DNA of 47,872 nucleotides, taken from an uncultured Planctomycetales bacterium. Its GTDB lineage: Bacteria > Planctomycetota > Planctomycetia > Pirellulales > Thermoguttaceae. Below the pieces are notes generated by a model. It had not been told where the DNA came from. It was given only the letters and a program-made list of their open reading frames with translations, and made no database searches. The stretch spans positions 1-47,872 of the forward strand of contig CAMZEO010000006.1 of NCBI GenBank assembly GCA_947305735.1, read 5' to 3'. The position numbers and the translations under genes were made by a program. Below, in pieces: positions 27,123 through 33,670 of the stretch (the first letter of the stretch is position 1; each line of letters starts with the position of its first letter).

Positions 27123-29081
27123 TTGAGCGCGATACCATCAGGTTCAAAACGATTGGTCGACAGTTGCTTGCCCTTTACGACTTCGGGTCGGCTGGCCAAA
27201 TGGTCGTACGAATTGGAACGCGTCAACGCGCTCGAGCCGAAGTATCAAAAAATGACCGACGGCGAGTTGCGTAAAGAGAGTTTGTCGCTGCGCTACAGAG
27301 CCAGAAGCGGCGAGCCGCTCGCGAGGTTGTTGCCGGAGGCGTTCGCGCTCGTTCGCGAGGCGGGAAATCGCGCGATCGGCATGCGCCACTTTGACGTGCA
27401 GATTCTCGGCGGTATCGCGATGTTCAACAAGTCGATCGTCGAAATGCAGACGGGAGAAGGCAAGACGCTCACCGCGACGGCGCCGATGTATCTTCGCGCG
27501 CTCGCGGGCAAAGGCGCTCTTTTAGCGACCGTCAACGACTATCTGGCGGCTCGCGACGCCGAATTGATGGGACCGATCTACAAAACGCTCGGCATGAAAG
27601 TCGGCGTCATTCAGACGCAGCAGCAGACCGATTCGCGGCGCCAGGCGTATCAGTGCGACGTCACCTACGGCACCGCCAAAGAATTCGGGTTCGACTTCCT
27701 TCGCGATCGGTTGCTTCTGCGACGTATTCGCGAAGGTCAGACGGATCTGCTCGGCGCGATGCTCCGCGAACAGCGCGAAAAGGACGAGCAGCCGACTCAA
27801 CGAACCGAACCGTATTTCTGCCTGGTCGACGAGGCGGACTCGATTTTAATCGACGAAGCGAGCACGCCGCTGATCATCAGCGCGCTTCCGACCGAAGAGC
27901 AGAAACAGGAAGTGGAGGCGTACAAATGGGCCGCCGACTCGATCTACGAATTCATTGAAGACGAAGACTACACCTACGACCATGAAAAGCGCGAAGTCGA
28001 ACTGACGCGCGAAGGGCGTCAAAAAGCGCGACGGCTCAAAAAACCGGACGCAATGTCGACGACGGGGTTGTACCACGTCTACGAATACGTCAAGCGCGCG
28101 ATTAAAGTCGACCGGGAATTCCACTTGGATCAGCAGTACGTCGTTCGAGACGGGGAGATCGTCATCGTCGACGAATTCACGGGGCGTCTCGGCGAAGGGC
28201 GCAAATGGCGCGAGGGGATTCACCAGGCGGTCGAGGCGAAAGAGGGAGTCGAAATCACCGTGGCGACCGGCCAGGCGGCGCGCGTCACCGTCCAGGATTT
28301 CTTCTTGCGATTTGAATACCTCGCCGGAATGACGGGCACGGCGCGAACGTCAAAACGCGAATTATCCAAAATCTACAAATGTCATGTCGTTCCCGTCCCG
28401 ACCAACAAGCCGCCGCGACGCGTCAAACTCGAAACGCGCGTCTTCGCGACCGAACGCGCCAAGTGGAACGCGATCGTTCAGGAAATATCCGAGTTGCACT
28501 CGCTGGGTCGCCCCGTCCTCATCGGCACTCGAACGATCGACAAGTCGGAAATACTTTCGAGGTTGCTTCAGGAACGCAAGATGGAGCACAGCGTCCTAAA
28601 CGCGAACCGAATCGCCGAAGAAGCGGAAATCGTCGCGGACGCGGGGCATTGGGGCAAAGTCACCGTTTCGACCAATATGGCGGGGCGCGGCACCGACATT
28701 AAGCTCCCGCCGGAAGTCCTGGAAATCGGCGGACTCGACGTCATCTGCACCGAAGTTCACGAATCGGCGCGCATCGATCGTCAGCTCATCGGGCGTTGCG
28801 GTCGTCAGGGCGACCCCGGCTCTTACAGACAGTATCTCTCGCTTGAAGACGAAATTCTGGAAAAAGCGTACGGTCCCAAAAAAGCCGACAAAATCAAGGC
28901 GAAAGGGGAAGCGACTCCGGACGCCGAAATGCCGGAAAAAGAGAGGATGTTCTACCGCGCGCAGAAAAAAGTCGAGAAGAAGAACTACCGCAATCGAAAA
29001 ACGATGCTTTATTACGAAAAAGAACGCAAAAAGATGCAGCGCGGCATGGGGCAGGATCCCTACCTGGACACGCCCAATTGA
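27123..29081 (+). CDS. secA2: Accessory SecA ATPase (SecA2-like, short form)
   Basis: A 652-residue SecA relative. The motor is complete: RVNALEPKYQKMTDGELR, Walker A MQTGEGKT (108-115), DEADSILIDEASTPLI, the cross-linking domain, VPTNKPPRR, TNMAGRGTDI and GRCGRQGDPGS. It stops soon after the second motor fold with a Lys-rich tail, lacking a full helical scaffold, wing domain and the C-terminal zinc tail of housekeeping SecA (around 900 residues or more). Planctomycetes are known to carry a second short SecA. Translation starts at TTG: GGAG lies 7 bases upstream and no ATG fits. It probably exports a subset of proteins with SecYEG; substrates are unknown. Confidence 0.9.
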   Translation: MSAIPSGSKRLVDSCLPFTTSGRLAKWSYELERVNALEPKYQKMTDGELRKESLSLRYRARSGEPLARLLPEAFALVREAGNRAIGMRHFDVQILGGIAMFNKSIVEMQTGEGKTLTATAPMYLRALAGKGALLATVNDYLAARDAELMGPIYKTLGMKVGVIQTQQQTDSRRQAYQCDVTYGTAKEFGFDFLRDRLLLRRIREGQTDLLGAMLREQREKDEQPTQRTEPYFCLVDEADSILIDEASTPLIISALPTEEQKQEVEAYKWAADSIYEFIEDEDYTYDHEKREVELTREGRQKARRLKKPDAMSTTGLYHVYEYVKRAIKVDREFHLDQQYVVRDGEIVIVDEFTGRLGEGRKWREGIHQAVEAKEGVEITVATGQAARVTVQDFFLRFEYLAGMTGTARTSKRELSKIYKCHVVPVPTNKPPRRVKLETRVFATERAKWNAIVQEISELHSLGRPVLIGTRTIDKSEILSRLLQERKMEHSVLNANRIAEEAEIVADAGHWGKVTVSTNMAGRGTDIKLPPEVLEIGGLDVICTEVHESARIDRQLIGRCGRQGDPGSYRQYLSLEDEILEKAYGPKKADKIKAKGEATPDAEMPEKERMFYRAQKKVEKKNYRNRKTMLYYEKERKKMQRGMGQDPYLDTPN

Positions 29082-30752: not shown

Positions 30753-32552
30753 ATGAAAAGGATGATTTTTTGCGTCGCGCTTTGCGTCGCGACGTCGTTG
30801 GGCGGTCTTTCGTTGTCGAGCGTCCGATCCGAAGACGTTCAAATAGACGGCAAAACGTATCGGAAAATCTCGGTCGCGGAATACCGCGACAAGATGAAGG
30901 GCGGCTGGATTGGGCAGATCGCGGGCGTATGCTGGGGCGCGCCGACCGAATTTCGTTTCTGCAACCGCATAATACCCGAAGACGAGCTTCCGGTCTGGAA
31001 TCCGGAAATGATCAACGACGCTTTCGGTCAAGACGACCTTTACGTCGAGATGACGTTCCTTCGAACCATGGAGGAACATGGCCTCGACGTCTCGATTCGC
31101 CAGGCGGGAATCGATTTCGCGAACAGCGAGTATCCCCTATGGCACGCGAACGTTTGCGGACGCAAGAATCTGCGCGGCGGGATCGCGCCGCCGAATTCGA
31201 GTCGACCGGAATTCAGCCATTGCGCCGACGATATCGACTATCAAATCGAATCGGACTTCTCCGGTCTGATTTCTCCCGGCTTGCCGAACAACGCCGTGTT
31301 GATGGGCGAAAAATTCGGACGGCTGATGAACTACGGGGACGGCATGTACGCGGGCCAGTTTGTCGGCGCGATGTACGCCGAAGCGTTCTTTGAAACGGAC
31401 GTCGTCGAGATTATTAAGAGAGCCCTCGAATCGATTCCCGCCGAATCTCAATACGCGGAAATGGTTCGGGACGTTCTTCGTTGGAAAGAGGAATATCCGG
31501 ATCATTTCGAAGACTGCTGGCAAAAGATCAATGAAAAATATCACCAGAACCCGGAGTATCGGCAGTGGTCTTGCTCGGGCGTCGACAGCGATTTCAACAT
31601 CGACGTGAAAATCAACGGCGCGTACGTTCTCGTCGGTCTGCTCTACGGAAACGGCGATCTGGACGAAACGATCAAAATCGCGACGCGCTGCGGTCAGGAC
31701 TCCGACTGCAATCCGTCAAGCGCGGGAGGCGTGTTGTTCACGACGCTCGGATTTAACGCGCTTCCGGCGAGATTTTCCGAGAAACTTGACGAAACGAAAG
31801 TTTTCAACCATACGGCGTATAATTTCCCCGCGCTCCTGGACGTCTGCGAAAAGCTCGCGACGCAAGCGGTTGAAAAAGAAGGCGGGTTTGTTCGCGAAGA
31901 AAACGGCGAAAACTCCTACTATATTCCTAAGACGGAGATCAAGACGAGCGCGTTGACGTCGTGCGCCGCGCCGACCGACAAGCCGATCGAAGGCCCGGAA
32001 GCTATGTTCAGCGAAGAAGAATTGGCGAAGTTGAAGTTCCGAAGTTATTCGGACGACGGCGCCCTCGACAAGTTTTTCTTCGGGTTCCGAGCGTCCCATA
32101 TGGGGCCCGACATGAACCCCGGCTATCGCGAAGAATATCGCGGCAGGAGAAACGTCTTCATGACTCATCCGGAAAGTCGGGAAGTCGGCGCCGTTCTCTC
32201 GGGCAAGGCGACTGCGTTGCGAAAGGGCGGTTTGCGATTTTACGTTTCTCACCACCTGAGCGACGATCAAATCGGCGACTATGAACTAATTGTCAGAATC
32301 GACGGAAAAGAGGCGTTGCGAACTGTTGTTTCCAAAGATTCTGTCGGGGACGACGGCTGGCAGGAGATCGTCGTCAGGTTTGAACCGGATTTTGACGGAA
32401 ATCCGGCGGAAGAAAAGGAGTACTTTGTCGAGATTGTCAATCAACCGAACGGCTGGTCCTGGGAAGCGATGTTTATCGCCGACATGAGCTTTTTTGCGCC
32501 GTCTTTTGAGATCAAAAGCAAACAGTCTTCGTCGCCGTTCTATTTGTTATGA
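30753..32552 (+). CDS. Secreted ADP-ribosylglycohydrolase-fold protein
   Basis: A 599-residue protein with a signal peptide (residues 1 to about 26, ending SSVRSED), so it works outside the cytoplasm. Residues 40-370 follow the ADP-ribosylglycohydrolase (DraG) fold: GGWIGQIAGVCWGAPTEF, the metal-site segment FGQDDLYVEM (93-100) and CGQDSDCNPSSAGGVL, equivalent to the DSDT...G motif of DraG. Residues 440-590 look like a beta-sandwich (GLRFYVSHHL, YELIVRIDGKEAL, GWQEIVVRF), perhaps carbohydrate-binding. Secreted members in planctomycetes and Bacteroides may act on glycans or nucleosides and not on ADP-ribosylated proteins; that is inference. GAGGAG precedes the ATG and a terminator follows. Confidence 0.85.
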   Translation: MKRMIFCVALCVATSLGGLSLSSVRSEDVQIDGKTYRKISVAEYRDKMKGGWIGQIAGVCWGAPTEFRFCNRIIPEDELPVWNPEMINDAFGQDDLYVEMTFLRTMEEHGLDVSIRQAGIDFANSEYPLWHANVCGRKNLRGGIAPPNSSRPEFSHCADDIDYQIESDFSGLISPGLPNNAVLMGEKFGRLMNYGDGMYAGQFVGAMYAEAFFETDVVEIIKRALESIPAESQYAEMVRDVLRWKEEYPDHFEDCWQKINEKYHQNPEYRQWSCSGVDSDFNIDVKINGAYVLVGLLYGNGDLDETIKIATRCGQDSDCNPSSAGGVLFTTLGFNALPARFSEKLDETKVFNHTAYNFPALLDVCEKLATQAVEKEGGFVREENGENSYYIPKTEIKTSALTSCAAPTDKPIEGPEAMFSEEELAKLKFRSYSDDGALDKFFFGFRASHMGPDMNPGYREEYRGRRNVFMTHPESREVGAVLSGKATALRKGGLRFYVSHHLSDDQIGDYELIVRIDGKEALRTVVSKDSVGDDGWQEIVVRFEPDFDGNPAEEKEYFVEIVNQPNGWSWEAMFIADMSFFAPSFEIKSKQSSSPFYLL

Positions 32553-32612: not shown

Positions 32613-32646
32613 GCGGGATTGAAACGATTATTCAATCCCGCTTTTT
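32613..32646 (+). terminator. Terminator after the ADP-ribosylglycohydrolase gene
   Basis: GCGGGATTGAA and TTCAATCCCGC form an 11-bp stem followed by TTTTT. Confidence 0.9.
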
Positions 32647-32810
32647 ATCATCAATGTTTGTTAAAATAGAGAAAATAGATAAATTTTCAAAAATTTTATT
32701 GAGTAGTCAAAATGACTTGAAATCTTTATTTTAAAAATCTTAGGTAAAGCGTTTCAATGAAAAATAGCTAATTTTAATTAAAAATAGATAATTTGCGCGT
32801 TGATTTATAA

Positions 32811-32838
32811 TTGACAATAGATTTTTGATTGTTATACT
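32811..32838 (+). promoter_or_regulatory. Near-perfect strong promoter for the Cys-rich protein
   Basis: TTGACA (32811-32816), 16-bp spacer, TATACT (32833-32838), preceded by a long A/T-rich stretch. It is the best promoter in the window. Confidence 0.8.
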
Positions 32839-32945
32839 TGTTGAAAACGTGGGGAATCGGTAGGATTTCCCGAGGATACATTCACAAGGCGACGTATTCT
32901 TCTAGAATAGCGGCGCCAACAAACCCCCCTGTTAGGAGTATTTCC

Positions 32946-33557
32946 ATGAATAAGTTTCTGAGCTTACTGGCGGCGTTGGCGATGGTCGTTTGCGCGTCCT
33001 ACTCGTTCGCTCAAGAAGAACCCGCGGCAGCCGAACCGGTCGCTGTTGAAGCCGCCGCTCCCGCCGCGCCTTGCGGTCCCGTTGCCGTCGCTCCTTGCGA
33101 GCCGGTCGCCCCTTGCGAAGCCGTCGCTCCTTGCGAAGCCGTCGCCGCTTGCGCTCCCGCGTGCGCCCCTTGTTGCACGCCCGTCCGCGACTTCTTTAAG
33201 CAACTCCGTTGCGTCCGCTTCTGCCGTCCTTGCTGCGCGCCCGCTTGCGGTCCCGCTCCTTGCGAAGCCGTTAAACCCTGCGAACCGGTCGCTCCTTGCG
33301 CTCCGGCCGCTTGCGAAGCCGTCGCTCCTTGCGAACCGGTCGCCGCTCCTTGCGCTCCGGTCTGCTGCAAGCCCTGCAAGCCGATTTGCAAGCCCCATTT
33401 CTGCAAACCCTGCTTCTGCAAGCCGATTTGCAAGCCGGTCTGCAAGCCCTGCTTCAAGGTTCCTTGCATTCGTTTCTGCCGTCCCTGCTGCAAGCCCGCT
33501 TGCGGTCCCGCTCCCTGCGCTCCGGTTGCTCCTTGCGCTCCGGCCGCCGCTTGCTGA
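32946..33557 (+). CDS. Secreted Cys/Pro/Ala-rich repeat protein
   Basis: A 203-residue protein with a Sec signal peptide (FLSLLAALAMVVCASYSFAQ). The mature chain of about 180 residues holds roughly 37 cysteines, mostly in PC, AC and KPC units such as APCEPVAPCEAV and KPICKPVCKPC. Two longer units are duplicated: CVRFCRPCCAPACGPAPC and CIRFCRPCCKPACGPAPC. The first part is Ala/Glu/Val-rich and the second Lys/Pro/Cys-rich and basic. I start at the ATG at 32946, with AGGAG upstream; the track start adds an unlikely leader. Heavy disulfide cross-linking outside the cell is likely, as in a structural wall or surface protein. No known family is recognised. Confidence 0.8.
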   Translation: MNKFLSLLAALAMVVCASYSFAQEEPAAAEPVAVEAAAPAAPCGPVAVAPCEPVAPCEAVAPCEAVAACAPACAPCCTPVRDFFKQLRCVRFCRPCCAPACGPAPCEAVKPCEPVAPCAPAACEAVAPCEPVAAPCAPVCCKPCKPICKPHFCKPCFCKPICKPVCKPCFKVPCIRFCRPCCKPACGPAPCAPVAPCAPAAAC

Positions 33558-33629: not shown

Positions 33630-33670
33630 AAAACGCGCTCAGGTTTGCGTTCTGAGCGCGTTTTCTGTTT
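33630..33670 (+). terminator. Terminator after the Cys-rich gene
   Basis: AAAACGCGCTCAG and CTGAGCGCGTTTT form a 13-bp perfect stem, with TTTTCTGTTT on plus and A's on the left side, so it could work both ways. Confidence 0.85.

Follow-up and report, generated by a model that had tools for sequence, protein, structure and literature searches.

Which kind of protein is encoded when one residue in five of a short exported chain is a cysteine, and how would a planctomycete from the gut use it? This question is raised by a locus in the window analysed here (the whole stretch of DNA, 47,872 nucleotides), which is one entire contig of a 4.39-Mb, 436-contig assembly, probably a metagenome bin. A first-pass annotation had proposed an abundant disulfide-linked wall or surface protein. 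Our analysis supports this interpretation in part and points to a predicted Cys/Pro-rich exported family, most likely structural. The family is new, genus-wide and probably highly expressed.

Table 1. Features of the P0001 locus (window coordinates)
Feature	Position	Strand	Basis
A/T-rich block above the promoter, UP-element-like, with AAAAATAG motif	32641..32810	+	base composition; orthologs
Sigma-70-type promoter TTGACA-16-TATACT, TG before -10	32811..32838	+	TTGAC in 10/10 aligned orthologs, -10 nearly so
Leader hairpin H1, a few bases past the predicted transcription start	32849..32871	+	MFE folding in orthologs; covariation
Leader hairpin H2, GGCG/CGCC clamp, upstream of the Shine-Dalgarno (SD) sequence	32888..32917	+	folding; covariation; covariance model R1
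SD sequence AGGAG	32934..32938	+	sequence; kept in orthologs
P0001, Cys/Pro-rich exported protein, 203 aa (ATG start, stop included)	32946..33557	+	ORF, composition, ortholog alignment, codon-position changes
Signal peptide MNKFLSLLAALAMVVCASYSFA, residues 1-22	32946..33011	+	kept in orthologs; confident helix 2-22 in AlphaFold2 model
18-residue unit, copy one, CVRFCRPCCAPACGPAPC	33210..33263	+	repeat comparison
Basic CKP-repeat block, residues 140-173	33363..33464	+	charge tracks and repeat reading
18-residue unit, copy two, CIRFCRPCCKPACGPAPC	33465..33518	+	repeat comparison
Terminator-like hairpin, 14 pairs, then T-rich tail	33630..33664	+	sequence

A Cys/Pro-rich exported protein encoded at a conserved locus

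The P0001 gene was compared with its closest ortholog. Codon positions 1, 2 and 3 carry 24, 20 and 69 differences, respectively. With changes concentrated at the third position, and with promoter, leader and locus kept in related species, the ORF is a real gene. Other phases of the same stretch also hold long frames, as would be expected if the region were non-coding and its open frames arose by chance from the repeats. The third-position excess in the P0001 frame and the conservation of signal peptide, SD sequence, promoter and locus contradict this reading, whose probability we regard as negligible. Position 32811, where the first-pass annotation had begun the unit, is the start of the promoter; the gene proper begins at 32946.

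The signal peptide was typed by eye as type I, with no lipobox, and the cleavage site, between SFA and QEEP, was also assigned by eye. The resulting mature chain of 181 residues contains 37 Cys (20.4%), 39 Pro and 41 Ala; over the whole of P0001, Gly occurs 3 times and His just once. The earlier reading of an exported 203-residue protein with about 37 cysteines in a mature chain of about 180 residues is thus borne out. The same holds for its two duplicated 18-residue units: C[VI]RFCRPCC[AK]PACGPAPC is present twice, at residues 89-106 and 174-191. Elsewhere in the window, Cys reaches at most 8.6% in any stop-to-stop segment spanning 100 or more codons. The Cys-Pro spacers of the mature chain are mainly C-X3-C and C-X5-C. 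Acidic and basic blocks alternate along the chain, separated by short basic segments. The orthologs compared begin with acidic Cys-Pro blocks; a basic segment then leads into another acidic block, which precedes a basic block and an uncharged end. This charge pattern and the Cys spacing recur in five orthologs. AlphaFold2, run with five sequences, gave a mean pLDDT of 51 and a pTM of 0.20, with no fold in P0001 beyond the signal helix. The chain is best read as mostly disordered, with no folded domain. No wall-anchoring motif was seen in P0001.

The gene order ADP-ribosylglycohydrolase, P0001, serC, tex is kept in related species. The ADP-ribosylglycohydrolase gene adjoins the P0001 ortholog in nine related genomes, with serC and tex on the other side where the contig extends; purA is also among the neighbours. 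The flanking proteins are mostly 70-95% identical across relatives (tex less so), whereas the Cys protein is more variable, its length ranging from 203 to 268 aa via gain and loss of repeats. Several assemblies break within the Cys/Pro gene.

Two neighbouring genes of the window may be mentioned here. The ADP-ribosylglycohydrolase-like protein encoded directly upstream of the Cys/Pro gene (30753-32552, +) has an apparent signal peptide. A SecA-like protein of 609 aa, shorter than usual SecA (27252-29081, +; Pfam SecA_DEAD, SecA_PP_bind and P-loop_SecA), is encoded a short distance from the Cys/Pro gene, an arrangement kept across the genus, and could be an accessory SecA.

A conserved promoter and a two-hairpin leader

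The promoter with its A/T-rich upstream block, as annotated at first pass, is clearly visible: GC content over 32641-32840 is 20.5%, as compared to 54.7% for the window, and an A-rich stretch above the -35 is also found in orthologs. The promoter is however not the strongest in the window, as had been claimed, but is tied with others, five sites scoring 11 of 12 consensus positions. What distinguishes it is its conservation upstream of orthologs rather than its consensus score.

Between promoter and gene, alignment of the upstream regions and MFE folding revealed a leader of about 100 nucleotides that contains a pair of hairpins in nearly every ortholog, G005 having a clear H1 but no clear H2. 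By MFE, H1 forms in all orthologs. The end of H2 lies 16 nucleotides from the SD sequence. For H1, 63 of 64 cells are paired, a result equalled in 1 of 20000 arm shuffles. For the variable part of H2, 34 of 35 cells are paired, equalled in 45 of 20000 shuffles. These figures are indicative, since the arms of seven or eight sequences were aligned by hand; H1 counts omit G006, H2 counts omit G004 and G005, one bulged G014 base was dropped and the shuffles ignore relatedness of the sequences. The leader of the window itself folds barely better than shuffled sequences (z -1.3), so that the case for the element rests on covariation.

Covariance model R1 matches upstream of the searched group A genes (the paralog group of the window gene, see below), weakly in G004 and G005. 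In the own genome it finds one confident site, the P0001 leader, the next match having an E-value of 0.087. With a confident match at just this one site of the own genome, the idea that the leader is part of a regulon was rejected. With the Rfam cut-off relaxed to E 5, no family overlapped the leader, and the paralog loci gave no gathering match. The two-hairpin leader, overlooked at first pass, is a conserved RNA element absent from Rfam.

Group B genes carry a different leader, and in several of them the SD sequence is preceded by a hairpin such as GGCGAAAGCC. A hairpin of the GNRA type is found in the group B leader of several relatives.

Distribution of the family

Two paralog groups were distinguished, A (the window type) and B. 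The own-genome group B copy (G000:C58:7806-8396, corresponding to L117 4792-5400) stands in conserved synteny. Its product, like P0001, is exported, Cys/Pro-rich and 203 aa long, with 36 Cys. Alignment of the group A and B profiles gave an E-value of 1.9e-25, to which shared composition contributes. Of the 20 genomes available for this genus of gut Thermoguttaceae, 16 were matched by the group A model. The group B model matched every one, although in some cases what it hit was a group A gene or a fragment; at least one family member is present in each of the 20 genomes.

In an order-wide search, 32 of 397 genomes matched. Of these, 18 belong to this genus, 8 to other Thermoguttaceae genera and 6 to other families. 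One further genus was matched using the single protein as query, and look-alikes occur in about seven other genera of Thermoguttaceae. The loci read within Thermoguttaceae share one design: the signal peptide is followed by spacers of the ACEPACEPAC type, and the Cys clusters are separated by basic segments such as CRPFAELRSKFRARL. Among the loci matched in other families of the order, those read were antisense repeats or unrelated frames, and these matches were rejected as unconvincing. A scan of genome contigs with the single protein gave nine loci. Three of them, in non-planctomycete records (Betaproteobacteria, Bacteroidetes, Alkanindiges), are weak or very short matches and were taken as composition or binning noise. 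Among the named relatives are bins of Thermoguttaceae recovered from the rumen of buffalo and the omasum of goats, plus further planctomycete records. On these searches, the Cys/Pro family is restricted to its lineage, with only weak or spurious matches past Thermoguttaceae. The first-pass annotation had held that a lack of relatives in other planctomycetes, together with low expression, would refute its proposal; the members found throughout the genus and the look-alikes in other genera remove half of that objection.

Some loci depart from the usual arrangement. In G018, a shorter Cys-rich copy stands in tandem beside the group A gene (L049 8200-8640, -; 146 aa, 38 Cys), with CKPICCKP repeats and its own two-hairpin leader. 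In one subclade (L151-L156; G010, G015, G017, G009, G008, G019), the stretch read beside serC has neither the group A gene nor the ADP-ribosylglycohydrolase gene, and the type present in these genomes is B.

Predicted expression level

In order to estimate expression, a codon score was defined as the log ratio of codon frequency in 13 own-genome ribosomal-operon genes to that in window genes; it has only these 13 genes as its basis, and repeated codons are not independent. The score is 0.130 for P0001 and 0.129 for the group B paralog, within the range of the ribosomal genes (-0.022 to 0.161), whereas all other window genes tested score at most -0.008. Given this ribosomal-protein-like codon usage, both genes are likely to be highly expressed.

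Relation to known cysteine-rich proteins

The family could not be named at first pass, and our searches agree: P0001 matched no Pfam family up to E 10, and NCBIfam and PDB sequence searches gave none. The idea of a Cys- and Pro-rich planctomycete wall, on which the first-pass annotation drew, is now tied to Cys-rich YTV-domain proteins, which were found in wall preparations (PMC8567305) and one of which is essential in Planctopirus limnophila (PMC10632474). P0001 shows no relation to YTV proteins. Membership of the YTV family (PF07639) was rejected, there being no Pfam match and no relation by BLASTP or hhalign. The YTV protein of the own genome is a separate gene (contig C2, L063 5818-7416), encoding 532 aa from the first ATG with 65 Cys; its codon score of -0.015 shows that it does not share the bias of P0001. 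P0001 and YTV proteins are alike in being exported, repeat-built, Cys-rich and planctomycete, and the short C-terminal Cys-Pro tail of the YTV proteins in this genus, such as CAPCQPACAPCASLGRIRAALGCQACDPC, resembles the spacer-plus-basic-segment design of P0001. In contrast, P0001 is without the YTV repeat, almost without Tyr, a third to half as long, and different in codon bias.

Other comparisons concern how such proteins may work rather than membership. The Cys-rich domains of cnidarian minicollagens, which belong to the nematocyst wall, also have C-X3-C spacing with Pro. The published minicollagen pattern CX3CX3CX3CX3CC (PMC4863159) is found exactly in the G007 ortholog (CKPICKPVCKPICKPVCC) and only in part in P0001. 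However, P0001 is bacterial, has many more Cys and, with its 3 Gly, has no Gly-X-Y collagen stretch; the likeness would be convergent at most. Metallothioneins have a high Cys share in common with P0001, which differs from them in being exported and much longer. In the same superphylum, chlamydial OmcA and OmcB are Cys-rich exported proteins cross-linked in the envelope. Unlike these, P0001 matches no Pfam family and has no aligned relative.

Possible nature of the cross-links and probable location of the protein

The disulfide linkage proposed at first pass is weakened by our results. Neither DsbB nor VKOR was detected in any of the 20 genus genomes, with models that do match in control genomes, and relatives come from the low-oxygen rumen and omasum. 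Most of the 20 genomes are 70-91% complete; nevertheless, as both oxidases are missing in all 20, their chance loss from the assemblies is unlikely. A literature search on Dsb in anaerobes gave nothing usable. Since the genus lacks these two known dedicated disulfide oxidases, the links may be either disulfides or metal-thiolates. Thiols may be fixed through other thiol-disulfide proteins, small oxidants or metal-thiolate bridges. Genomes of the genus nevertheless encode exported proteins with 30-65 cysteines.

We consider, with a probability somewhat above even, that P0001 is an exported structural protein of the cell envelope, abundant, largely unfolded and cross-linked through its cysteines. 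Its export, predicted abundance and conservation suggest an envelope location, as does the precedent of the Cys-rich YTV wall proteins. The rapid turnover of repeats while the locus stays fixed and the presence of paralogs throughout the genus fit the structural reading as a whole. The fact that the YTV gene, the known wall type, lacks the codon bias of P0001 counts against it. If P0001 were instead an exported, metallothionein-like protein for the extracytoplasmic binding of Zn, Cu, Fe or toxic metals, its 20% Cys and single His would fit, and in the anoxic gut habitat of the relatives, without DsbB or VKOR, its thiols may stay reduced. We find this unlikely: metallothioneins typically have C-X-C spacing, of which P0001 has a single instance and the five other orthologs counted have none; no metal transporter or regulator adjoins the gene, its neighbours being ADP-ribosylglycohydrolase, serC, tex and purA, and the codon bias suggests a constitutive bulk protein.

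The high Cys content and the anaerobic habitat could also suggest a periplasmic thiol store or redox buffer, but a store would have no obvious need for repeats in a set order, for charge blocks that are conserved or for the basic segments, and we consider this role very improbable. We also regard it as quite unlikely that P0001 is released from the cell to act as adhesin, holdfast or matrix protein outside the wall proper. An export signal without a membrane anchor agrees with release, and repeat turnover with lineage restriction is common among surface-exposed proteins; on the other hand, the gene is a single locus in strong synteny and Pfam detects no adhesive domain. Sequence alone does not separate such release from an envelope location.

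For a structural envelope protein, the simplest reading is that of a disordered polyampholyte: charge would drive its assembly, and the cysteines would afterwards fix it. Hairpins H1 and H2 would stabilise the mRNA or tune translation, and P0001 would be exported through Sec. Acidic blocks of one chain would pair with basic blocks of another. Cross-linking of the paired chains by their cysteines would then give an insoluble network, located in or on the envelope together with the YTV wall protein.

Implications

The cohesion of planctomycete cells is a long-standing question, much of whose answer is so far carried by one Cys-rich type, YTV. A second Cys/Pro-rich exported family, unrelated to YTV, genus-wide and with codon usage of the top-expressed type, would open this question to a direct test, by comparing proteomes obtained in the presence and absence of reductant. 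The absence of DsbB and VKOR would make the genus a test case for the cross-linking of extracellular thiol-rich polymers in anoxic habitats. Tentatively, anaerobic gut planctomycetes may possess, besides the YTV wall, a second protein armour of abundant disordered Cys-Pro polyampholytes, cross-linked without DsbB or VKOR, by metal-thiolate bridges or an unknown oxidation route, and its output may be set by a new double-hairpin mRNA leader.
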